Source: an uncultured Prevotellaceae bacterium (GTDB taxonomy: Bacteria; Bacteroidota; Bacteroidia; Bacteroidales; Bacteroidaceae). From it: a stretch of DNA of 64,000 nt. The notes under the pieces were generated by a model. That model did no database searches. It saw only the letters and a program-made list of their open reading frames with translations, and was not told where the DNA came from. Of this stretch, positions 6,785-58,030 are shown piece after piece. Location of the stretch: contig ONMR01000004.1 of the NCBI GenBank assembly GCA_900318995.1, positions 62,001-126,000 on the forward strand, in the 5' to 3' direction. Position numbers and translations under genes: made by a program. Each line of letters starts with the position of its first letter. The stretch's first letter is position 1.

Positions 6785-9132
6785 TTGTATATCACGCTAC
6801 AAAGAAGCAATTCGTTCAAGACGTTTTTGATAATACCATTGCTGATGATATCGATAACGCCTTTTATGCTCATTTAGGTCGTCATACTTCACCAAATGAG
6901 AAACGTTCCTGGCAGAACTCCATGCAATATATGTACAAGGTGATGGATTCTCCCCAATTACCGGATGATGCGGGAATAGCCATAGAATATCAGATACCGC
7001 TTACGTCAAAAAGGATAGATTTTATAGTAGGAGGAAATGATGAATTCGGAAGGGGTAATCTTGTCATTATTGAACTCAAACAATGGGAAAAAGCCAGATT
7101 TGCAGATAAGCCGGATCTGGTTGTAACCCGTTTTGAACACGGGGAAGCCGAGACGAGCCATCCTTCATATCAAGCATGGTCCTATGCCTATATGCTTGAA
7201 AATTACAACAGCACTATACAGGACTACAGGATTAGTTTGAATCCTTGTGCCTATCTGCATAATTACCAACCGGATTCTGTTATTACGGATAGCCGTTATA
7301 GCGATTATACCAGCAAAGCCCCGGTGTTTCTGAAGAATGATGCGCAAAAGCTGCGTACGTTTATAGGCAAGCATATTCATAGTGGGGCAAAGCAGGATCT
7401 GATGTGGCTTATAGAAAATGGTGAATTGCGTCCGTCAAAACAGTTGGCAGACTCTATTGTTTCTATGGTAAAGGGCAATCCTGAGTTCGTGATGATTGAT
7501 GAACAGAAGGTGGTATATGAAAATGCTCTTGATTTGGCCCGCAAATCACAAACCGGTCGCAAGCATGTTTTGATTGTACAGGGTGGGCCAGGTACGGGAA
7601 AGAGCGTGCTGGCTATTCAATTGATGGCAGAACTTACTAAAGAAAGGATAGCTTGCCAATATGTTTCCAAAAACTCCGCTCCCAGAGCAGTATATTCGGC
7701 TAAGCTCAGTGGAACATTCAGAAGAAACTTTATCAACAATCTGTTTGTAGGAAGTGGCAGTTTTATCGATACTCCCCAAAATTCTGTAGGCGCACTAATT
7801 GCAGATGAGGCACACCGATTGGCAGAGAAGAGCGGTCTATATGCCAACCAAGGTGACAATCAGATACGTGAGATAATCAATGCCGCCAAGTTCTCTGTGT
7901 TCTTTGTCGATGACCGTCAGCGTGTTCACGTTCGTGACATAGGTTCTACAAAAACCATTCAGACAATAGCAGAACAGTGCGGGGCCAAAGTCAATGTCAT
8001 GAAACTTGAATCACAGTTCAGATGCAACGGATCAGACGGATATCTCTCTTGGATTGATAATGCCCTGCAAATATCAGAGACGGCAAACATCAATCTGTCA
8101 TCGGCCGATTATGATTTCCGGGTGTTTGACAGTCCGGTAGATATGTTCAATGCTATCAAAAACAAGAATGCCGACAGAAACAAATCACGTGTTGTTGCAG
8201 GATATTGTTGGAAATGGTACCAGAATGAAATGGATGTTCCCGATATTGTTATCCCTGGATATAAGTTTGCAAAAAAATGGAATCTGGCATCTGATGGTAA
8301 CTTATGGATTATAGGCGATAATTCAATAGACCAAATAGGTTGCATTCATACCTGTCAAGGCCTTGAACTGGATTATGTGGGCGTTATTCTTGGCCCAGAT
8401 ATTAAGTTTAGAGACGGACATATCATTACTGACGTAACGGTACATCCCGGTGCAGATGCTGCAGTCCGTGGCTTGAAGACACTGGTTCGCTCAGGTGATG
8501 TAAGGGCTTGTCAAACAGCAGATGAAATCATCAAGAATACATATCGCACACTGATGACAAGAGGCATGAAGGGCTGTTATGTTTTCTGTTGCGATAACGC
8601 GCTTTCAGAGTACCTCAAGGGGTTGCTGACTGTAGAAGAAACACCCCAGGAGTTTGCACGTATTGAAGCCGATGTGGCAGATAATGTAAAGTATGTTGAT
8701 TTCTTGCCTTTCTATTCAGTGAAAGCCGCCTGCGGTTATTTTGGTGACGGTGAAGATGTTGAAGAATCTGGATGGGTGCAGGTTGAAGGAATGGGCAAAC
8801 TGAATCGCAACATGTTTGTCGTAAAAGCATCCGGTAATTCCATGGAACCGAGAATTCACGATGGAGACTTGTGTGTTTTCAGAGCAAATCCCGCCGGTAG
8901 CCGTGAAGGAAAGATCCTGCTGGTACAAAACCATACGTCTTATGATCCTGAATATGGAGGAAGTTATGCCATAAAACAATACACTAGTGATAAGTCTTTC
9001 TCAAATGACGGCTCATGGCATCATTCATCGATAATACTGAAACCCTTGAATCGGGATTATAAACCTATCGTTCTAGAAGAAGATGAAGCTGATGATTTTA
9101 GAGTGATAGGAGAGTTCTTAGGAACGCTATAA
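6781..9132 (+). CDS. Nuclease-like/DUF2075 helicase/S24 peptidase fusion
   Basis: 783 residues from ATG 6781. Three parts are visible. (1) Residues about 1-110: RIDFIV (Asp80) then IIELKQW (Glu98, Lys100) fits a PD-(D/E)XK-type nuclease site. (2) About 255-630: a DUF2075/superfamily 1 helicase core with Walker A GGPGTGKS (268-275) and Walker B ADEAHR (341-346). (3) About 639-783: an S24 (LexA/UmuD) domain with cleavage site Cys651-Gly652 in AACGYF, Ser687 in GNSMEP and Lys732 in YAIKQY, so all autocleavage residues are present. The first gene of the pair is a MazG-like enzyme. The S24 tail suggests activity controlled by DNA damage through self-cleavage (inference). Confidence 0.85.
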   Translation: MIVYHATKKQFVQDVFDNTIADDIDNAFYAHLGRHTSPNEKRSWQNSMQYMYKVMDSPQLPDDAGIAIEYQIPLTSKRIDFIVGGNDEFGRGNLVIIELKQWEKARFADKPDLVVTRFEHGEAETSHPSYQAWSYAYMLENYNSTIQDYRISLNPCAYLHNYQPDSVITDSRYSDYTSKAPVFLKNDAQKLRTFIGKHIHSGAKQDLMWLIENGELRPSKQLADSIVSMVKGNPEFVMIDEQKVVYENALDLARKSQTGRKHVLIVQGGPGTGKSVLAIQLMAELTKERIACQYVSKNSAPRAVYSAKLSGTFRRNFINNLFVGSGSFIDTPQNSVGALIADEAHRLAEKSGLYANQGDNQIREIINAAKFSVFFVDDRQRVHVRDIGSTKTIQTIAEQCGAKVNVMKLESQFRCNGSDGYLSWIDNALQISETANINLSSADYDFRVFDSPVDMFNAIKNKNADRNKSRVVAGYCWKWYQNEMDVPDIVIPGYKFAKKWNLASDGNLWIIGDNSIDQIGCIHTCQGLELDYVGVILGPDIKFRDGHIITDVTVHPGADAAVRGLKTLVRSGDVRACQTADEIIKNTYRTLMTRGMKGCYVFCCDNALSEYLKGLLTVEETPQEFARIEADVADNVKYVDFLPFYSVKAACGYFGDGEDVEESGWVQVEGMGKLNRNMFVVKASGNSMEPRIHDGDLCVFRANPAGSREGKILLVQNHTSYDPEYGGSYAIKQYTSDKSFSNDGSWHHSSIILKPLNRDYKPIVLEEDEADDFRVIGEFLGTL

Positions 9133-43694: not shown

Positions 43695-45143
43695 TTACTT
43701 TCTGATTAAGAGGAGGTTCAACAATTTGCGTATCAACCAAGCCAGGACAAAATAGATTATGGTGATGATGAGCAGAGGAATGAGTGCATCAAACGTGCGG
43801 CTACGGATAAGGTCGCTGGCACGGGTCAGGTCCTGGATAGCTATGTATCCCACTATTGATGTACTCTGCAACAGTTTGACGCAATCGCCGGCATACAGCG
43901 GAAGACCATGGCGGAGCGCCTGCGGCAGTACTATACCGGTAAAGGTCTTGAAAGGGGTGAAACCCAGACTCAATCCGGCCTCGGTTTGTCCTACAGGTAC
44001 AGTGGATATGGATGAGTTAAAGATATTTCCGGCCGATGAGGCAAAGCTGAATGCAAATGTGATGATTGCCACAGACGACGCGCTCAAACCGGAACTTGCA
44101 AATACCACGTAGAACATGATGAGCAGCAGCACCAGAGTAGGGGTTCCCTGTATGAATGAGCCGTAAAGACCGGCTGCCGACCTTACCCAACGTCGGCGGC
44201 TGCGCAATGCGGCACACACACCCATTCCCAGAATGGTTCCAATCAGGATTGCAAGCACGGTTATCTTTATGGTCTCCACGAAACCGTCTGTTATCAGTTT
44301 CCAGCGATTCTCCCTGATAAGGTTCATCCTGAACCGTTCTCCTATTCCGATATGTGCACGCTTGCCATGATCCACTACTACATATACCGGATGGCACAAG
44401 TAATAAGAATCAGTGAAATCCATGAAAGTCTTTCTCTCCTCGGTTATAAAGATGTTGCCGCCTACCATATCTACTTGTCCGGCCTGTACGGCTGTAATGG
44501 CACCGCCAAGATCCTGTAACATTATCTCTATGGGACGCCCTAAATAATTGGCAAAACGGGTCAGCAGATCAGGGGTAAGCCCCATCCATTCACCACCTTC
44601 ACCAACATAACATACGGGATCCAGATTTGCGCATACCGCACAGCGCAAGGGCTGGGTATTCTTTATTTGTCCGGCATTGGGATCGGGTACCTGGGGGCCA
44701 TCCTTTGTCCAGTGTTCTATGATATCCTGTACTGGGATTGAGGCAAGGAACGTATTGAACTGCCCGGCTAGCTCTGTGTTTCCTTTTTTTACACAGTACG
44801 CAACCTCAAACAAGTCTTCTCCGTAAAAAGCCACTTTCAATCCCAAATCTTTCAGTGTACGCTCCGGAACCTCAATGTCATCGGCCACAAATACATCTGC
44901 CAGGCCCTGACGTATGGCCTGTAGGGCATCGGCTTGGGTGGCGGCAGCAAACACTTTGACATCTGAGCGTTTAGAGAACTTGTGCTCGTAGTAATTGCCT
45001 ACTGCAGTACTAAGTGTCAGACCGGAAAGGTCGGCCTCAGAGTTCAATACCAGATCCTTGTTCCTGCGATGCGAACATGATGCGCAGACAGCAAGTAACG
45101 ATATGCAGGCAATCAGTTGAATAGTAGTGTTCTTTACCTTCAT
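43695..45143 (-). CDS. Amino-acid ABC transporter: receptor fused to permease, lipoprotein
   Basis: 482 residues. Lipoprotein signal ([11 protein letters not shown], then SHRRNKD). About 30-255: periplasmic solute-binding domain of the SBP_bac_3 type ([38 protein letters not shown]). About 275-480: HisM/GlnP-type permease with [19 protein letters not shown] and the EAA loop region [22 protein letters not shown]. Such receptor-permease fusions (as in GlnPQ) capture amino acids at the outer side of the inner membrane. First gene of the minus operon; TAAGTTTG promoter at 45171-45178. Confidence 0.9.
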
Positions 45144-45170
45144 TTAATTGTATTCTGTTAATCCTTATTG

Positions 45171-45178
45171 CAAACTTA
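45171..45178 (-). promoter_or_regulatory. -7 box of the ABC transporter operon
   Basis: TAAGTTTG on the minus strand, 28 bases before the start codon. Confidence 0.5.
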
Positions 45179-45200
45179 TACAAAATCGGCAGATTTTATA

Positions 45201-45208
45201 TAAGTTTG
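45201..45208 (+). promoter_or_regulatory. -7 box of the GH54-like gene
   Basis: TAAGTTTG, 20 bases before the ATG at 45228; mirrors the divergent box at 45171-45178. Confidence 0.5.
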
Positions 45209-45227
45209 CTGATATTTACAACCAAAT

Positions 45228-47654
45228 ATGAAGAATTATTCCATCCTAATTACCGCCACTTTGATGCTGGCCGGTTGCACAGGCAAGGTCAAGGGACCCT
45301 GCGACATCTATGAGAAGTTTGGAACCGAGTGCGTGGCCGCTCACAGCACCACCCGCAAGCTCTACTCCAAGTATGACGGACCGCTCTATCAGGTGGTGCG
45401 TGAATCTGACGGCAAGACTCTTGACATAGGTACCATAGACGGAGGTTATGCCGATGCCGCCGCACAGGATGCTTTTCTGGAGGGAACTATCGGATACATC
45501 AGCATCATTTATGACCAGACTGGCCACGGGAATGACCTGATTCAGGCATCTCCGGGTACTTTCAACGGCCCGGCCAAGGGTGAGTTCAACACTTTGCCCA
45601 TTGCAGATATGGCTCCGGTTTCCGTTAACGGTCATAAGGCATATGGTGCGTATTTCATGCCCGGCATGGGATTGCGCAACAACAATGCCTCATATCTGCC
45701 TATCAATGACGAACCGGAGGGAATATATTACGTGGTGAACGGCAATCATTTTGACAGCGGCTGCTGCTTTGACTACGGCAATTCATCCACCAACGGACGT
45801 GCAGTGGGCCGCGGCACTATGGAGACCACATATTTTGGTACGTCCACAAACTGGGGCAGCGGCAACGGCGACGGCCCCTGGATCATGGCTGATATGGAAT
45901 CAGGACTATTCTCAGGTTTTAACGCCAAGAAGAATGATGTTCCGTCCATAACGGAATGGGAGTTTGTGACAGCCTATGTTAACGGAGGTGGCGGTAATAA
46001 ATGGGATCTGCGTGGCGGTGATGCCACAAAAACGGATGTGGTAACTTTCTATGAGGGCGAGCGTCCCTCATCACCCAGCCAGACAGATGTCTATTTCCCC
46101 ATGAGCAAGAAAGGTGGCCTGCTTCTGGCCAACGGCGGTGACAACGGAAACGGATCGGCCGGAACATTCTATGAGGGAGTAATAACCGCAGGCTATCCGT
46201 CATTTGAAGCAGTCAAAGCTGTCCAGGCAAATATAGCAGCGGTAAAATATGCAAGACAAACGCTCCAGGCTTCACGCCTGCGCACTTTCCGCAAGGAGGA
46301 CGGCAGGACACAGAATATGAGTGTCATTTTCCACAATAACACTTCTAATCCCATAACAGATATCAATCTTGGAGTGGAACTGCCTGAAGGATGGCAATCA
46401 GAGATGATTTACATGCAGGAATTTGAAAGCATCCTGCCTGGTCACGGTGTGAGCGCAGTATTCAGAATCACCATGCCCGATAAGGACGATGCCGGTTTTG
46501 CAAAAGCAACAGCAGAATGGGACGGCGGATCAGAATTCACATCATTCAGGATACGCAGTGCTGCGGCTGTGAGCATCAATGAGATAAGCCTGGGTAATGA
46601 GCAGTTCATTGAACTGTACAACGCATCGGACCAGCCGGTTGACCTGTCAGGTTGGGAGGTTGAGATAACCCGTAGCGGATGGGCGCCTGTCCGTGCCGCA
46701 AGACTGCCTGCTGGTACAGTAATCAAGGCAAAGGATTTCCTGGTGATGCGCCCCAACGCTGAAGCCCTTCAGTTTGACGAATTCCCGCTTACCAAGATAT
46801 TCATCCCTGTTTCAACGGCCCCCAAGAGCGTTTTCAAGGCCGGCAGTACATCACTCCCCGTAGCATCGGTTGACGGATTGAAGGCAGGTCAGAAGATAGG
46901 AATAGACTTGGGTGGCATGTATGAGGAGGTTACACTTACAAAGGTTGGAACCCCAGGCACCCAGACCGTACTGGTGGGTCCGGCAAAGGCTGGTGACAAG
47001 ACCCTGAACCTTGAGGTTACTGCAAACCTCAGTGAAGGTATGGAGATAACAATCAGCACGGGTCAGAGAAAAGAGGTGAGAAAAATCACCAAGGTCATTA
47101 AGGTGTCCGAGGCTCCGACGCCCAGACGCGGTTTTGGACAGCAGTCGCAGCCTCATGAGCCCGGTGTGGTTGAGATTGACAAGCCCCTCACCATTGATCA
47201 GATTGCAGGTGTCGATGTCTGGGCATTCGGCACTGGAATTGAGTTTACCCCCGCACTCAGGTATGACCACATGAGCGGTGATGCAATATCGGCCCCGCTT
47301 GTAAAACCTGCTAATGACGGCAGTTACAGCTACACCTATTCAACCCGTGCAGGTGCAATAGCACTATATCACGGTGATGTTCCGGTGGATGCCGTTATCT
47401 ACGGCTCCAAGCAGAGCAACTCAAGCGCCAACGGCACAATATGCAGGCCTGATTTGGCAGTCCTGGAGGGAGAGCAGACTCAGGGCGGCTGTCTGGCAGA
47501 GGTTCCGCAGATGCGTATGCCGCGCGGCATGAATCAGGGTCAGGCATTGGCCCCCACATACTCGCTGGTAAGGATGCCCGACGGCAATGACCGCGATGCA
47601 TTGTGTGAGATTCAGTACACACAGAATCCCACTCCCGGCGCATCAAACAAGTAA
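45228..47654 (+). CDS. GH54-like alpha-L-arabinofuranosidase with lamin-tail domain, lipoprotein
   Basis: 808 residues. Lipoprotein signal LMLAGC (Cys16). About 20-350: the catalytic jellyroll of GH54 arabinofuranosidases (CDIYEKFGTECVAAHSTTRK, LYQVVRESDGKTLDIG, CCFDYGNSSTNG). Next an NPCBM/NEW3-like domain (about 355-445). Then a lamin-tail/LTD-like domain (ISLGNEQFIELYNASDQPVD) that is interrupted by a long beta insert (about 530-650) and resumes with SYTYSTRAGAIALYHGDVPVDA. Releases arabinose from arabinan or arabinoxylan; convergent with a GH3 gene. LTD domains on GH54-type enzymes are not standard. Confidence 0.83.
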   Translation: MKNYSILITATLMLAGCTGKVKGPCDIYEKFGTECVAAHSTTRKLYSKYDGPLYQVVRESDGKTLDIGTIDGGYADAAAQDAFLEGTIGYISIIYDQTGHGNDLIQASPGTFNGPAKGEFNTLPIADMAPVSVNGHKAYGAYFMPGMGLRNNNASYLPINDEPEGIYYVVNGNHFDSGCCFDYGNSSTNGRAVGRGTMETTYFGTSTNWGSGNGDGPWIMADMESGLFSGFNAKKNDVPSITEWEFVTAYVNGGGGNKWDLRGGDATKTDVVTFYEGERPSSPSQTDVYFPMSKKGGLLLANGGDNGNGSAGTFYEGVITAGYPSFEAVKAVQANIAAVKYARQTLQASRLRTFRKEDGRTQNMSVIFHNNTSNPITDINLGVELPEGWQSEMIYMQEFESILPGHGVSAVFRITMPDKDDAGFAKATAEWDGGSEFTSFRIRSAAAVSINEISLGNEQFIELYNASDQPVDLSGWEVEITRSGWAPVRAARLPAGTVIKAKDFLVMRPNAEALQFDEFPLTKIFIPVSTAPKSVFKAGSTSLPVASVDGLKAGQKIGIDLGGMYEEVTLTKVGTPGTQTVLVGPAKAGDKTLNLEVTANLSEGMEITISTGQRKEVRKITKVIKVSEAPTPRRGFGQQSQPHEPGVVEIDKPLTIDQIAGVDVWAFGTGIEFTPALRYDHMSGDAISAPLVKPANDGSYSYTYSTRAGAIALYHGDVPVDAVIYGSKQSNSSANGTICRPDLAVLEGEQTQGGCLAEVPQMRMPRGMNQGQALAPTYSLVRMPDGNDRDALCEIQYTQNPTPGASNK

Positions 47655-52225: not shown

Positions 52226-52331
52226 CTTCTGTTATTACAAGCTCCCGGAATGTTGCCACAGATGGCATAAAACCTATATTAAGATTTTGTTACAATTTCT
52301 CCCGGACCTTTTGATTACGGAGTAGTTTGAG

Positions 52332-52339
52332 TATTTTTG
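52332..52339 (+). promoter_or_regulatory. -7 box of the Na/Pi transporter fusion
   Basis: TATTTTTG, 21 bases before the ATG at 52361. Confidence 0.5.
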
Positions 52340-52360: not shown

Positions 52361-54325
52361 ATGTTAATTGTATTGAAGCTTTTAGGGTCTATCGCCCTGC
52401 TCATCTACGGTATGAAGGTCATGAGCGAGGCGTTGCAGAAGATGGCAGGCCCGCAATTGCGTCACCTGTTGGGCGCAATGACCACAAACCGTTTCTCTGG
52501 GGTTGCAACAGGAGCACTTGTAACAGTAGCAGTCCAGTCATCGGCAGCAACGACGGTAATGACCGTATCGTTTGTTAACGCCGCACTGCTCACACTTAGC
52601 CAGGCCATATCGGTCATTATGGGTGCCAATATAGGTACCACGCTGAGCGCCTGGATCATGTCGGCCGGTTTCTCCTTCAACATAGCCAATCTGGTATGGC
52701 CGGCTTTCCTGATAGGAATTATACTTATACAGATAGGCAAGCACCGTTATGTGGGCGATTTCCTCTTCGGAATAAGTTTCCTTCTGTTTGCCTTGGGAAT
52801 GCTTAACCAGACCGGTCGTGAGATGGATCTGGCCAGCAATCCGGCCGTAGTAAACTTTTTTGCATCATTTGACTCCGGCAGTTACGGCACTATACTGCTG
52901 TTCCTTCTGATAGGCGCCATACTTACCTGCATAGCTCAGTCATCGGCAGCACTTATGGCTATCACAATGGTGCTCTGCTCAACCGGAGCGATTTCAATAT
53001 TCCAGGGTATAGCACTGGTTATGGGCGAGAACATCGGCACCACACTGACTGCAAACCTGGCGGCTATGTCGGCCAACACTCAGGCCCGCCGCGCTGCTAT
53101 GGCTCACCTGCTGTTCAATGTATTCGGTGTGATTTGGGTCCTCATAATATTCTTCCCGTTTGTACGCACCGTATGCCGTGTGGTAGGCATTGACGTAACA
53201 GCCGATTCTGTTGATCCGGCCAGATTGACCTTTGCGCTTGCCACGTTCCATACAGCGTTCAACGTAATCAACACTTCTTTGCTGATAGGTTTCATTCCGC
53301 AGCTGGAGAAACTGGTGTGCTACATAATCAAACCCGGCAAGGCCGATGAGGAGGATGAGTTCCGCCTGCAGTTCATTCGCGGCGGTATCATGAAAACCCC
53401 GGAAATATCAGTCTTCCAGGCACAGAAGGAGATTGTCATATTCGGCGAGAAAATGCAGCATATGTTCGGTCTGGTTAAGGATCTCTACAAGACTACCGAT
53501 GAGCAGGCGTTCAAGAAACTGTTTGAACGCATAGAGAAGACCGAGGACGGCAGCGACCGAATGGAGCAGGAGATAGGCAAGTATCTGGGTGACGTGGGCG
53601 ATGCGCATCTGTCGGATGATACCAAGGAGAAGATCCGCGCCATGCTCCGCCAGATTGGCGAGCTGGAGTCAATCGGTGACAGCTGTTTCGGACTGGCACG
53701 CATCATGCGCCGCAAGCAGGAGAACAAGATAGAGTTCAACCAGACACAGAAGGAAGGAGTCAGCCAGATGTTCGGACTTATAGACCAGGCACTTACACGT
53801 ATGAATGAGCTTCTGGCCGGCCGCAGGGAGGAGTATGATATAACCGTGTCGGAGGAGATAGAGAACAGTATAAACGCCTGCCGCAACCGCCTGAAACAGG
53901 AGAACATAAACAGTCTGGACCAGCATACATACGGCTATGGCAGCGGAACGGTATTCTCAGACCTGATTAGCGAATGCGAGAAGACCGGCGACTACATCAT
54001 AAACGTAGTGGAATCCCGCCTGGGTACCGTCCGCAACGGAATACGCTACAGAGGCATCCAGATTGACACAGACAGCAAGGAGGTTACCGTTGACGGAAAT
54101 CCGGTCTCTTTTACCAAGACAGAGTATGAGTTGCTCAAGCTGTTCATGATGAACCGCGGCGTTGTCTATTCGCGCGAGCAACTGCTGCAGGCCATCTGGC
54201 CCGATGACGTTGTGGTAAATACCCGCACAGTCGATGTAAACATCACCCGCATCCGCAAGAAAATAGAGCCTTACGCTGACTGCCTGGCCACCCGTGCCGG
54301 TTTCGGCTACTGCTTCCAGGATTGA
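52361..54325 (+). CDS. Na/Pi cotransporter-PhoU-winged-helix fusion
   Basis: 654 residues in one uninterrupted frame. About 1-310: NptA-type Na/Pi cotransporter with two inverted repeats (AVQSSAATTVMTVSFVN and AQSSAALMAITMVLCS). About 340-545: a PhoU-like helical domain (EIGKYLGDVGDAHLSDDTKE). About 562-654: an OmpR/PhoB-type winged helix (ITVDG-like VTVDGNPVSFTKTEYELLK, then VDVNITRIRKKI and GFGYCF), closely resembling the output domain of Bacteroidetes response regulators. Usual family members stop after PhoU. PhoU and winged helix would both face the cytoplasm, giving a membrane-bound transporter that can touch DNA. Stop codon lies in a repeat-like TGATACAAA. Confidence 0.92.
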   Translation: MLIVLKLLGSIALLIYGMKVMSEALQKMAGPQLRHLLGAMTTNRFSGVATGALVTVAVQSSAATTVMTVSFVNAALLTLSQAISVIMGANIGTTLSAWIMSAGFSFNIANLVWPAFLIGIILIQIGKHRYVGDFLFGISFLLFALGMLNQTGREMDLASNPAVVNFFASFDSGSYGTILLFLLIGAILTCIAQSSAALMAITMVLCSTGAISIFQGIALVMGENIGTTLTANLAAMSANTQARRAAMAHLLFNVFGVIWVLIIFFPFVRTVCRVVGIDVTADSVDPARLTFALATFHTAFNVINTSLLIGFIPQLEKLVCYIIKPGKADEEDEFRLQFIRGGIMKTPEISVFQAQKEIVIFGEKMQHMFGLVKDLYKTTDEQAFKKLFERIEKTEDGSDRMEQEIGKYLGDVGDAHLSDDTKEKIRAMLRQIGELESIGDSCFGLARIMRRKQENKIEFNQTQKEGVSQMFGLIDQALTRMNELLAGRREEYDITVSEEIENSINACRNRLKQENINSLDQHTYGYGSGTVFSDLISECEKTGDYIINVVESRLGTVRNGIRYRGIQIDTDSKEVTVDGNPVSFTKTEYELLKLFMMNRGVVYSREQLLQAIWPDDVVVNTRTVDVNITRIRKKIEPYADCLATRAGFGYCFQD

Positions 54326-54331
54326 TACAAA

Positions 54332-54364
54332 TGATACAATTGGGGTCAGGCCCCTTTTGTATCA
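54332..54364. repeat. A-family palindrome (A8)
   Basis: TGATACAATTGGGG, loop TCAGG, CCCCTTTTGTATCA, preceded by a partial direct copy TGATACAAA at 54323 which provides the stop codon of the transporter gene. Confidence 0.82.
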
Positions 54365-54435: not shown

Positions 54436-54457
54436 AACACAATTTAATGATTTGCTT

Positions 54458-57400
54458 ATGAGACGTCTGACCAGGAAGGAGAGAGTCATAATGGACTACT
54501 ATTGGACCTACGGGCCCATGTTCATTCGCGAGCTTCAGGAGCACTATCCAGACCCCAAACCATCGTTCGGCACACTGTCCAACCAGGTGCGTACGCTCCA
54601 GGCCGACGGCTTTATGAGCCACAACGCTTTCGGCACCAATTACCAGTACTATCCGGTCGTTGACCGGGAGCAGTACAGCAAGTCCGGCATAAACGGTATA
54701 GTCGATGAGTTTTTCAGCAGTTCTTACTCCAGCGTGGTGATGTCATTTGTAAAGGATGAGAAACTGTCGGTTGAGGAGCTGGAGCAGATAATAAAGCTGC
54801 TGTACCACCTGCTGCTGAGGCGTGAAACGTTCCACCGTACAGCACGTATAGTCCTTGTATCGTCTTTGATAATCTCATATATACTGCCGTTCTGCGTAAT
54901 CACAATCCACAGGCCGGCGCCAGTGGTTGAGAACCCTGAAGTTGCTGCAATTCAGGCTCCTGCTGCCGTCCCCTCAACTCCAACCCGCCATACTGTACAA
55001 CCGGACATACAACCGGGAGAGAGGCAGATCCGGCAGGAGCAGAATCAGATAGAGGAACAAGTCCGGATACAGGCCCTACCACAGCAAGAGGTGCGGCAAG
55101 CGGTGGTCTTTCCTGATTCAAACCAGTCTTTACCTGTTCCTACCCGCAAGCATATGGATTGGATATTGGTATCAATAATAATCTATGCATTAGGGGTTGT
55201 ATGTCTTATAATTCTCAGGCTTTTGTCTGCTGTTAAGGTGATTGGTATAATCCATCGCGGTCGCACGATAGTGAAAAAGGATGGTTGCAGGATAGTGATA
55301 TCGAGTGATGACATCCGTCCATTCAGCTGGATGAACAGTATAGTCCTGCCGGAAGATATGGCGCAGTCTGAATCCTTGTGGAATTCGGCAGCAGTGCGTC
55401 ACGAACAATCCCACGTATCACACCATCATTCCATAGAGCTGTTGGCCATAGACATTCTTTCAGCATTCCAATGGTTCAATCCCGCAGTCTGGCTGTTAAG
55501 ACATGACCTTTGCTGTGTTCAGGAGTTCCAGGCCGATGCTTCCGTACTTGAATCCGGTTATGGCAAACTGGAATATGAGCAAAGTCTGCTGAGCATAGCA
55601 ACCGGTGGAATCTCCATCCCGCTTGTGAACGGACTGGGCGAAAGCTATCTGCGCGCCAGAATCCGTATGATGAACCGCAATATTTCCCGTAAGGGCAACC
55701 TGATTAAACTCATCTACCTGCCTTTGGTGATGGTTGTTGCTTTAGTTCTGATTTCCAATACCGTCTATGATAAGGCTGAAACCGATAATACAGAAGTTGA
55801 GTCCGATCAGGAGGAAGCCGTCACCATATTCCGGTTTGGCGAGGAGGTGAATAAAACTTTTCTTGAGCACCTTGATGAATTTGATGATACTTTGAAACTG
55901 AAAGAGGTATTCAGGACAGACGTAGGCGATAAAGCAAAAGGATTCAAGGTAACATTATTCAACTTTACTGATGAAGGATGGGAGAATGATCCTGGTGATT
56001 TCTGTCTGATAACGATTGAAACCGGCGGCAAACAATACCGGTTCAAGAATGAGGACTGGGTTATCGAACCATTGTTTGACAACGGCTATTTCCACTGCGT
56101 TGAGGTGGCCGAATCCCACTATCTCCTGTTCCTGAAAGGATTTGATTACGGATGCTGTCCCGGTACCCTGACCGTGCTGGCTGTCGATGAGACAGGGGCC
56201 TATATGGTAATGAAAAAGGAATATGATTTGAGGGAATTCAACTCGGAGCCTTTCTCAATGACTGTGGCCGACTGGTATGATGAATACGTATCTGATGACG
56301 TGACAATCAACTCTGCTACATACACCCTCTTTATAGAGGATGGGGCCCTGAAAAAGAGATGGGTTCAGCTTTTTCCCAATAAACATGAATACGTTGACCT
56401 GGGCCTGAGCGTGAATTGGGCCACTTGTAATGTGGGCGCTGAAAAGCCGGAAGAATACGGGGATTATTATGCCTGGGGTGAAACAGCGCCTTACTATGTA
56501 AAGAATGCCGGTGCAGACAATGAACTCCAATGGAGAAAGGGAAAGGAGGCAGGCTATGACTGGGAATCATATTTTGACATAAAGACCATTGAACCTACAG
56601 ATTATGATGATATTGTAACCTTCTGGCACTACAATACTCAGGAAAAGAGTGTGATTGAATATTATCATGATGCCGCAACCATAAACTGGGGCGGGGAATG
56701 GCGCATGCCCCGTCAGGCGGAATTTGAAGAACTCATAAATCCTGACAATTGCACCTGGACATGGACAACTATGAATGGTGTGAACGGTTACAGGGTGACC
56801 AGTAAGAAACCCGGATATGAAGGCAATTCCATTTTCCTGCCGGCAGCAGGAGGATATTCCGGAACAGACTCCAAGTTACGTGATGCATATGGCTGGTACT
56901 GGTCCGGTTCAATAGATGACAAGACCTCCGATAAAAGTACGAATTTTGCATACATTCTCAATTTCTACTTTGATACCCGCTTTGTGTTCATTAACTCCTC
57001 CGGCCGATGCTCCGGGCTTCCTGTACGTCCCGTCTTACCAAACGGAAGAAACCATAAAACGGTATATGGAACAAATAATGAGCCTATTGCCGATAACACA
57101 GAGATAGAACCTAAAACAGCACAGACGTTACTGGCCCGTTTTGATGGTTCATTGCTGGAGTCTCAGGTAGCAATTCCATCATACCAGGATTATAGAGAAC
57201 TTCCACAAAACCTCCCTGACATAATACTGGACAGTCTGAAAAAACAGTATCCTGAACTGAATTCACTTGAGAGCATCTATGATGACGGAATATTAAGCAA
57301 TGACAAGCCCTATAAGGGATACATATCCTGCATCCAACTTTCCAAAGGTGTCTATTCATTCTGGGTTATGGGTCTGGAAGACAAGGGCGGCCAGGTGGTA

Positions 57401-58030
57401 TCGATAGAACTTGGCACTATAGATGATGCAATAGCGTTCCTTAATAATCTTGTTTCATCATATAAACAAGGCAATACTGTGCTAGCTCAGGGTTATACGC
57501 TGACTGGAGTCAGGGGTAATGCCTACTCGGTTCCCAGAACAGACGGCGTAGAGCCTGGTCCATATCTGGTAAGCGTAAAAAACCTGAAGCATGACCTGTC
57601 AGTTCTAGAGAAAAGAAAGAACTGGAAAGAAGTTGGTTTTGATGAGATTGCCTTCTTTTCGATGGAGAACAAACCGGATCATTATGAAGTCTTGTTTCCC
57701 GGTTGGCCCAGATTATTTGAGTCTTTGCACATAAATACATGGGATGGAGTTGACGGAGGTGAAGAATGGGCACGCACAGAACTTGAAAAACAGATTCGTG
57801 AAAGAGGAGGCGAGGGACATGTTCCTGGAAATAGTGAATTGGCAGTGTCCAAATTCAACGGTGTGATACTGCTTCCGTTACATAAGAGTGATTATATGAC
57901 TCTTTCAGGGGCTTATAAGGAGTATATTCAATACTATATTCCTATTATCTACGACCCGGAAAAGTATCAGGCCCCGCTTACCGATTATCAGCGAAGCCTG
58001 AAGAGAAATGTTTTCAGGCGCAAGAAATGA
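54458..58030 (+). CDS. BlaI-BlaR1 single-chain sensor/regulator fusion with FISUMP-like domain
   Basis: 1190 residues from MRRLTRKERV. About 1-125: BlaI/MecI winged-helix repressor (LTRKERVIMDYYWTYGPMFI, GTLSNQVRTLQADGF). TM 129-149, Pro/Gln-rich loop to 230, TM 233-256. About 258-417: BlaR1-type M56 metalloprotease with HEQSH (315-319), NPAVWLLRHD and zinc ligand Glu356 in QEFQAD. TM 418-433. About 435-640: unassigned beta-rich part. About 643-865: a FISUMP/DUF1566-like module (YVDLGLSVNWATCNVG, EWRMPRQAEFEEL). About 870-1190: unassigned. In known systems BlaI and BlaR1 are separate genes. Topology puts repressor and protease inside, sensor outside. The ligand is unknown; no beta-lactamase gene is near. 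Confidence 0.88.
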   Translation: MRRLTRKERVIMDYYWTYGPMFIRELQEHYPDPKPSFGTLSNQVRTLQADGFMSHNAFGTNYQYYPVVDREQYSKSGINGIVDEFFSSSYSSVVMSFVKDEKLSVEELEQIIKLLYHLLLRRETFHRTARIVLVSSLIISYILPFCVITIHRPAPVVENPEVAAIQAPAAVPSTPTRHTVQPDIQPGERQIRQEQNQIEEQVRIQALPQQEVRQAVVFPDSNQSLPVPTRKHMDWILVSIIIYALGVVCLIILRLLSAVKVIGIIHRGRTIVKKDGCRIVISSDDIRPFSWMNSIVLPEDMAQSESLWNSAAVRHEQSHVSHHHSIELLAIDILSAFQWFNPAVWLLRHDLCCVQEFQADASVLESGYGKLEYEQSLLSIATGGISIPLVNGLGESYLRARIRMMNRNISRKGNLIKLIYLPLVMVVALVLISNTVYDKAETDNTEVESDQEEAVTIFRFGEEVNKTFLEHLDEFDDTLKLKEVFRTDVGDKAKGFKVTLFNFTDEGWENDPGDFCLITIETGGKQYRFKNEDWVIEPLFDNGYFHCVEVAESHYLLFLKGFDYGCCPGTLTVLAVDETGAYMVMKKEYDLREFNSEPFSMTVADWYDEYVSDDVTINSATYTLFIEDGALKKRWVQLFPNKHEYVDLGLSVNWATCNVGAEKPEEYGDYYAWGETAPYYVKNAGADNELQWRKGKEAGYDWESYFDIKTIEPTDYDDIVTFWHYNTQEKSVIEYYHDAATINWGGEWRMPRQAEFEELINPDNCTWTWTTMNGVNGYRVTSKKPGYEGNSIFLPAAGGYSGTDSKLRDAYGWYWSGSIDDKTSDKSTNFAYILNFYFDTRFVFINSSGRCSGLPVRPVLPNGRNHKTVYGTNNEPIADNTEIEPKTAQTLLARFDGSLLESQVAIPSYQDYRELPQNLPDIILDSLKKQYPELNSLESIYDDGILSNDKPYKGYISCIQLSKGVYSFWVMGLEDKGGQVVSIELGTIDDAIAFLNNLVSSYKQGNTVLAQGYTLTGVRGNAYSVPRTDGVEPGPYLVSVKNLKHDLSVLEKRKNWKEVGFDEIAFFSMENKPDHYEVLFPGWPRLFESLHINTWDGVDGGEEWARTELEKQIRERGGEGHVPGNSELAVSKFNGVILLPLHKSDYMTLSGAYKEYIQYYIPIIYDPEKYQAPLTDYQRSLKRNVFRRKK

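Follow-up and report, generated by a model that had tools for sequence, protein, structure and literature searches.

A Na/Pi cotransporter fused to PhoU and a PhoB-type DNA-binding domain in Prevotellaceae: a candidate one-chain, self-regulating phosphate transceptor

The route by which phosphate transport is reported via PhoU to PhoR-PhoB is a long-standing question. It is raised again by a gene at 52361-54325 (+ strand) of the window analyzed here, the whole 64,000-nucleotide stretch of DNA from a draft Prevotellaceae genome. An initial annotation had described the product as an NptA-like Na/Pi cotransporter with its PhoU domain that continues without interruption into an OmpR-type output domain, and had proposed that transport, signaling and DNA binding are united on one chain as a transceptor. 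Does a phosphate transporter act here as its own transcription factor?

The uninterrupted chain was confirmed. The gene starts with ATG and encodes 654 amino acids in a single frame with no internal stops, and all of the expected Pfam domains scored above cut-off: Na_Pi_cotrans in two stretches (the better one at residues 13-149, E 3.5e-53), PhoU at 362-448 (E 3.4e-8) and Trans_reg_C at 579-652 (E 3.3e-22). The membrane transporter part comprises residues 1-345 (52361-53395, + strand) and has many hydrophobic segments, all within residues 1-323 and ending before 330. QSSA is present in both of its Na_Pi_cotrans stretches; a repeated QSS motif is the signature of NptA-type Na/Pi cotransporters. 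The PhoU part follows at residues 347-554 (53399-54022, + strand), then a winged-helix domain at residues 558-653 (54032-54319, + strand) whose recognition helix, TRTVDVNITRIRKK, occupies residues 621-634 (54221-54262, + strand). With 214 bits against NCBIfam TIGR00704 (cut-off 210.1), the protein passes the sequence tests of an NptA-PhoU transporter. In an AlphaFold model (39 sequences, mean pLDDT 79, pTM 0.50), there are membrane helices and six long helices that span 347-554; the winged helix covers 560-652, and residues 621-634 form its third helix. The output-domain border of 562-654 given by the initial annotation was thus correct to a few residues. At a pTM of 0.50, the mutual arrangement of the domains is not given by the model.

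Several comparisons place the output domain closer to PhoB than to OmpR-type regulators in general. The NCBIfam model of Bacteroidetes PhoB, NF053854, was the top-scoring response-regulator model for the C-terminus, aligning over model positions 130-225 of 225 only. By Pfam and by this coverage, no receiver domain with a phospho-acceptor Asp was found in the protein; the match starts at position 130, so the receiver is missing and the output domain stands directly after PhoU. No histidine kinase family was matched in the fusion by Pfam or among the 25 NCBIfam matches listed. In a Foldseek search of the PDB, the four top matches were the E. coli PhoB effector domain, either bound to pho-box DNA or free (1gxp and 1gxq; TM by target 0.83-0.86, identity 40-41%), the best being 1gxp, E. 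coli PhoB on pho-box DNA (TM 0.85 by target, 40% identity). E. coli PhoB chains also ranked best in a phmmer search with the winged helix, and the recognition helix is nearly identical to that of PhoB (consensus of 20 PhoBs, LDRTVDVNITRLRK). By fold and helix, the output domain is specifically that of PhoB.

The fusion is carried by 21 of the 37 genomes of the genus, the window's own genome included. It runs as a single frame to residue 652-654 in 20 of these, namely the own genome and 19 others at 72-98% identity, and is split across two frames in the remaining one (G010). In the family sample, counting listed entries only, at least 24 of 301 genomes have it, including 11 from five other genera; fusions of other genera and of named records share 54-63% identity with the window protein. 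One genome per species was also scanned over 84,980 species, and the best 80 of 590 confirmed places were considered. Judged by frame length, 32 of these 80 are fused, and many have record titles naming the rumen or forestomach of ruminants. Two records with titles containing neither "MAG" nor "uncultured", Prevotella sp. khp7 (L143) and Prevotellaceae bacterium HUN156 (L166), hold the fusion with all three Pfam domains. The architecture proposed by the initial annotation therefore exists well beyond the window. It is spread through the family, but no description in print of a transporter fused to such a DNA-binding domain was found in searches of open-access literature. Among 394 plasmid records, the eight matches listed included no fusion and all ended at or before residue 555.

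The output domain is under purifying selection. Across 17 g1 fusions, the median dN/dS was 0.035 for the membrane part, 0.081 for PhoU and 0.091 for the winged helix, and it was 0.037 for the recognition helix (residues 618-636). A PhoB-like recognition helix is also retained between genera at 54-60% identity.

If the output domain is that of PhoB, a pho box would be expected at a target promoter, and one was found by sequence match upstream of the fusion gene itself. The pho-box-like direct repeat, TTGTAACAAAATCTTAAT, lies at 52278-52295 (- strand) and consists of two half sites with an 11-bp period; its second half site is weak and 11 of 14 positions match in total. Fourteen bases separate the end of the box from the TTTG element (52310-52313) of a likely Bacteroidetes-type promoter (52310-52339, + strand), in which TATTTTTG (52332-52339) lies 18 bases beyond TTTG. 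This promoter was read from the sequence by the Bacteroidetes promoter consensus, and 17 of 19 g1 fusion promoters contain TAnnTTTG. The position of the box relative to the promoter would be compatible with activation. TTGTAAC-like repeats with an 11-bp period also occur in the promoters of unfused transporters linked to phoB, including four consecutive repeats in L133.

In order to compare promoters, matches to the two half sites (14 positions) were scored on both strands of the 150 bases upstream, with a threshold of 11. The threshold was reached by 47 of 62 fused entries, 21 of 65 unfused entries and 3.3% of 2,540 dinucleotide shuffles, and 44 of the 47 boxes start 77-93 bases ahead of the start codon used. 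Among the 60 fusions with a usable promoter, every one with an intact recognition helix has a box (47/47) and none with an altered helix does (0/13). Left out of this count were L011 and L023, whose upstream DNA is too short, and L014 and L025, whose upstream DNA in the assembly is no promoter. Two unfused entries, L133 and L155, were set aside because phoB adjoins them; 16 of the remaining 59 unfused entries reached the threshold. Within the clade around the genus (46 entries), 21 combine an intact helix with a box; the other 25, whose DNA-binding domain is altered or absent, lack the box. Shared descent enters into these counts, and the entries include duplicate genomes (L096 = L015, L097 = L018, L091 = L131); the tree offers only four independent helix/box contrasts, each of which goes the expected way (p 0.125). 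The rule for calling a helix intact was set after helix and box had been seen together, so the count was repeated with a helix score derived from the 20 free PhoBs alone, which predicts the box with an AUC of 0.93 and a Spearman coefficient of 0.46. The main exception is L126, which has a high helix score, no box, and Ala at the central Asn/His.

The fusions L115, L117, L120, L121, L123 and L125 form a clade with a changed recognition helix; L115 is still a good Trans_reg_C match. By eye, TTGATAA repeats at 11 bp are present upstream of L125, and a near repeat is present upstream of L120. Helix and operator may have changed jointly to a new specificity in this clade.

A phoB leftover that no longer binds DNA, on a protein that is only a transporter, would account for the 13 fusions with an altered helix. 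It would also fit relatives at 75-79% identity, such as L105-L112, which stop near residue 555 without a DNA-binding domain, so that the domain can be missing. Against this stand the low dN/dS of the recognition helix, its retention as a PhoB-like helix between genera, and a box kept wherever the helix is kept. We consider it improbable that the domain is such a leftover.

If the fusion has taken over a role of PhoB, its carriers might do without the two-component system. PhoB was scored as present when NF053854 matched above cut-off, and PhoR when a match extended into the N-terminal half. Many genomes of the genus are incomplete, the own one being 87% complete; with this proviso, PhoB was found in 0 of 21 fusion genomes and in 5 of 16 genomes without the fusion (p 0.010, ignoring shared descent). 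PhoR occurs in exactly those five PhoB-bearing genomes, and no PhoR match into the N-terminal half was found in the own genome (G000) or in the other 20 fusion genomes of the genus. Across the family sample, 2 of the 24 genomes with the fusion have PhoB, compared with 183 of the 277 without it (Fisher 2.6e-8); once this genus is removed, the figures are 2 of 11 and 180 of 269 (p 0.0017), both tests ignoring shared descent. One of the two exceptional carriers, G362, has a phoB-phoR pair that looks intact. In the other, G211 (L210, G211:C6), phoR extends over three overlapping frames and phoB is short, which looks like a regulator pair in decay. The fusion thus mostly accompanies loss of PhoB-PhoR, as judged from these gene contents. 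That loss needs no fusion, since 11 of the 16 fusion-free genomes of the genus also lack the pair, four of them (G001, G027, G030, G031) at least 90% complete. At E 1e-5, the only Trans_reg_C proteins of the own genome are the fusion and RprY, which has a different recognition helix; their number is likewise two in G018, a genome listed as 100% complete.

Genomes that retain the pair indicate where the fusion may have come from. Of the five phoB-phoR genomes in the genus, four have a phosphate transporter beside the pair: NptA-like plus pst in G035, NptA-like in G014 and Pit-like in G003 and G019. In the fifth, G023, the contig starts at phoB. These transporters were named from reading the sequences, and pstB also by TIGR00972. 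PstB was rejected as a component of the system, since none of the 37 genomes reached the TIGR00972 cut-off of 343; G035, with its pst-phoB-phoR cluster, came to 340 bits, and frames of about 260 amino acids in G007, G009, G022, G029 and G033 came to 313-318 bits. In other genera, an unfused transporter is followed on the same strand by phoB-phoR in L133, L155, L197, L198 and L199 (about 970 bases beyond the transporter in L199), and by phoB in L196, where no phoR was recognized within the stretch. The phoR frames after these unfused transporters are short, at 291-367 amino acids. Two membrane helices spaced by 1-10 residues are predicted for the PhoRs of L133, L155, L197 and L198, and one helix for that of L199; in longer PhoR kinases with both helices predicted, the spacing is 117-147 residues. 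By this spacing the short PhoRs lack the periplasmic part, as if their signal came from the transporter.

Such transporter-phoB-phoR operons are the likely precursor of the fusion. The stop codon of the transporter gene and the receiver of PhoB would have been lost, with PhoR lost last. On the transporter tree, the fusion character needs eight changes, six of them on well supported branches. The winged-helix tree (96 columns, eight near-identical entries left out) needs four and still allows a single clade (p-AU 0.47). Fusions may have arisen repeatedly from these operons.

The best reading of these results is that the protein is a one-chain, self-regulating phosphate transceptor, to which we assign a probability of roughly 0.7. 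It draws on the fusion itself, its conservation under selection, the PhoB-type helix and a box that covaries with that helix, and on the scarcity of PhoB-PhoR in carriers and the precursor-like operons, all of which are features of sequence. The N-terminal NptA-like part would bind or import phosphate, and the PhoU part would read the transport or phosphate state. The PhoB-type winged helix at the C-terminus would remain at the membrane and bind the 11-bp direct-repeat pho box just upstream of its own promoter. When phosphate is low, the PhoU part would allow two of these domains to pair on the box, which would raise transcription of the transporter; when phosphate is high, the domains would be kept off the box. 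A covalent link would thereby replace the phosphorelay. Transporter, PhoU and output domain are joined and no kinase was found, so that direct control of the DNA-binding part by the PhoU part is the simplest arrangement. What we infer for this protein is that it binds DNA, senses phosphate, acts as an activator and not a repressor, and still transports. A second Na/Pi cotransporter is encoded in the own genome (L001, G000:C29, around 44431-45252), unfused and in a 587-amino-acid frame, and the fused one therefore need not be the main importer.

The DNA-binding part could instead act as a soluble regulator, freed by cleavage or made from an internal start, which would make the search for DNA easier. 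Yet a conserved start codon in the linker is absent from 14 aligned fusions, the Met that is frequent just ahead of the linker is Ile in the window protein, and in the AlphaFold model only about five residues separate the last PhoU helix from the first strand of the winged helix. Release of this kind is unlikely.

A membrane-held regulator with several targets would be awkward, a point against the transceptor reading. An exact copy of the genus pattern occurs in the own genome only at the fusion. A wider regulon there was rejected, as the two further matches have two mismatches each and sit within frames. The window also has a 12/14 box match at 7121-7138, within a frame. Over the 37 genomes, all 17 zero-mismatch matches are at fusion promoters. 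The two one-mismatch matches are at the G007 fusion promoter and in the nptA/phoB gap of G014, and there are 56 two-mismatch matches, compared with 72 matches of the reversed control. In ten genomes of other genera, a stricter pattern matched 25 times and its control 14 times. The fusion promoter was the sole match to this pattern in G322, G203, G252 and G167, the sole perfect match in G059 and G084, and in G211 one of five matches; it was missed in G268, which had no match, and in G200 and G362, which had matches elsewhere. At 22 further sites in 20 stretches, box-like repeat arrays were recognized by eye in G005 (four repeats) and G084 (three repeats). The G005 array, a four-repeat pho box at L266 4646-4685, lies about 4.5 kb ahead of the fusion, beside a flavodoxin-like frame and a glycoside-hydrolase-like gene (named by eye), and is a possible second target. 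Convincing boxes other than those at fusion promoters are few, and the best-supported target of the fusion, from these pattern matches, is its own gene.

Boxes beside other genes in G005 and G084, and the 16 of 59 unfused entries at the box threshold, could also mean that another regulator serves the upstream box and that the fused domain has other targets. This is more doubtful than either alternative above, given that the sole other OmpR-type regulator found in the own genome is RprY, with its different helix, and that box and helix covary.

If the transceptor reading holds, the transporter would be its own transcription factor, and it is conceivable, though we put it at a little below even odds, that the phosphate relay has collapsed into one membrane chain and the regulon shrunk largely to its own gene. 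Control of its own gene by a membrane-bound protein is plausible insofar as the gene probably lies close to the membrane during insertion of its product. Since the product is inserted while it is being made, the fusion gene may be drawn to the membrane, within reach of the tethered DNA-binding domain; such closeness would account for the survival of self-control as other pho boxes dwindled.

Parts of this arrangement are known from other systems. S. aureus NptA, an NptA-type Na/Pi cotransporter (PF02690 + PF01895), shares the transporter and PhoU parts with the fusion, and its PhoU domain helps to control the PhoPR two-component system (PMC13170248). There, NptA is described without a DNA-binding domain and as working via PhoPR, whereas the fusion carries such a domain; "fused", "fusion" and "DNA-binding" have no occurrences in the main text of that paper. 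PhoB of the PhoR-PhoB system, including B. fragilis PhoRB (PMC3547664), has the output domain, recognition helix and type of pho box in common with the fusion, but the fusion is membrane-bound, has no receiver domain, and no kinase partner was found for it. In E. coli, PstSCAB is coupled via PhoU to PhoR and PhoB (PMC6978683), a source that also describes how CadC is informed of lysine by a separate permease, LysP.

Membrane one-component regulators of the ToxR/CadC type have an N-terminal winged helix, one membrane helix and a periplasmic sensor. Like the fusion, they bear an OmpR-type winged helix on a membrane protein (PMC5430869), but in the fusion this domain is C-terminal on a transporter-PhoU chain, so that the domain order is not ToxR-like. 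Transporters fused to a signaling output are also known, namely CbrA (PMC13022988, PMC7096432) and the Kuenenia ammonium sensor kinase (PMC5764959). There, the output is a histidine kinase that requires a response regulator, whereas the output of the fusion is the DNA-binding domain itself. CbrA is termed a rare transceptor in a 2026 preprint (PMC13022988). By domain content and order, the fusion is neither a PhoB, which would have a receiver, nor ToxR-like, nor a CbrA-like transporter-kinase.

With transporter, PhoU and PhoB output on one kinase-free chain, the PhoU step can be studied alone. A survey of 926 genomes names Bacteroidota among the taxa that include genomes with neither PhoP nor PhoR identified (PMC13170248), and the fusion is a candidate phosphate regulator for Bacteroidota without PhoPR. 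With uptake, sensing and gene control performed by one protein, the nutrient circuit would be very short, and the fused, degenerate and unfused relatives with or without a box amount to a natural experiment on helix and operator.

The initial annotation had also pointed to a second one-chain signaling protein directly downstream. In the window, BlaI and BlaR1 (M56) are indeed on one chain at 54452-58030, with a long C-terminal extension, but the arrangement is not conserved: BlaI/BlaR1 lies within 1.2 kb downstream of the fusion in 2 of 32 loci, G000 and G026 only, and BlaI-BlaR1 was rejected as a functional partner for this reason. Of the proposed transceptor, the three joined parts, selection, the PhoB-type helix and a box at its own promoter thus stand, and the BlaI-BlaR1 link does not. 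In G026, a near relative of the own genome, BlaI and BlaR1 are two separate frames, and the join in the window is therefore recent or a matter of assembly. That an assembly or sequencing artefact likewise joined the transporter to its output domain, as the draft state of the genome and this neighboring join might suggest, has a negligible probability and is ruled out by orthologues with the identical join in 21 genomes of the genus, five other genera, L143 and L166, and no receiver domain remains between the transporter-PhoU and output parts. A 31-amino-acid BlaI-BlaR1 piece lies upstream of the fusion in G029. Directly 3' of the fusion gene, at 54333-54364, the window has a terminator-like inverted repeat, GATACAA..TTGTATC around GGGGTCAGGCCCC, and a near copy of this repeat follows the fusion gene in G026.
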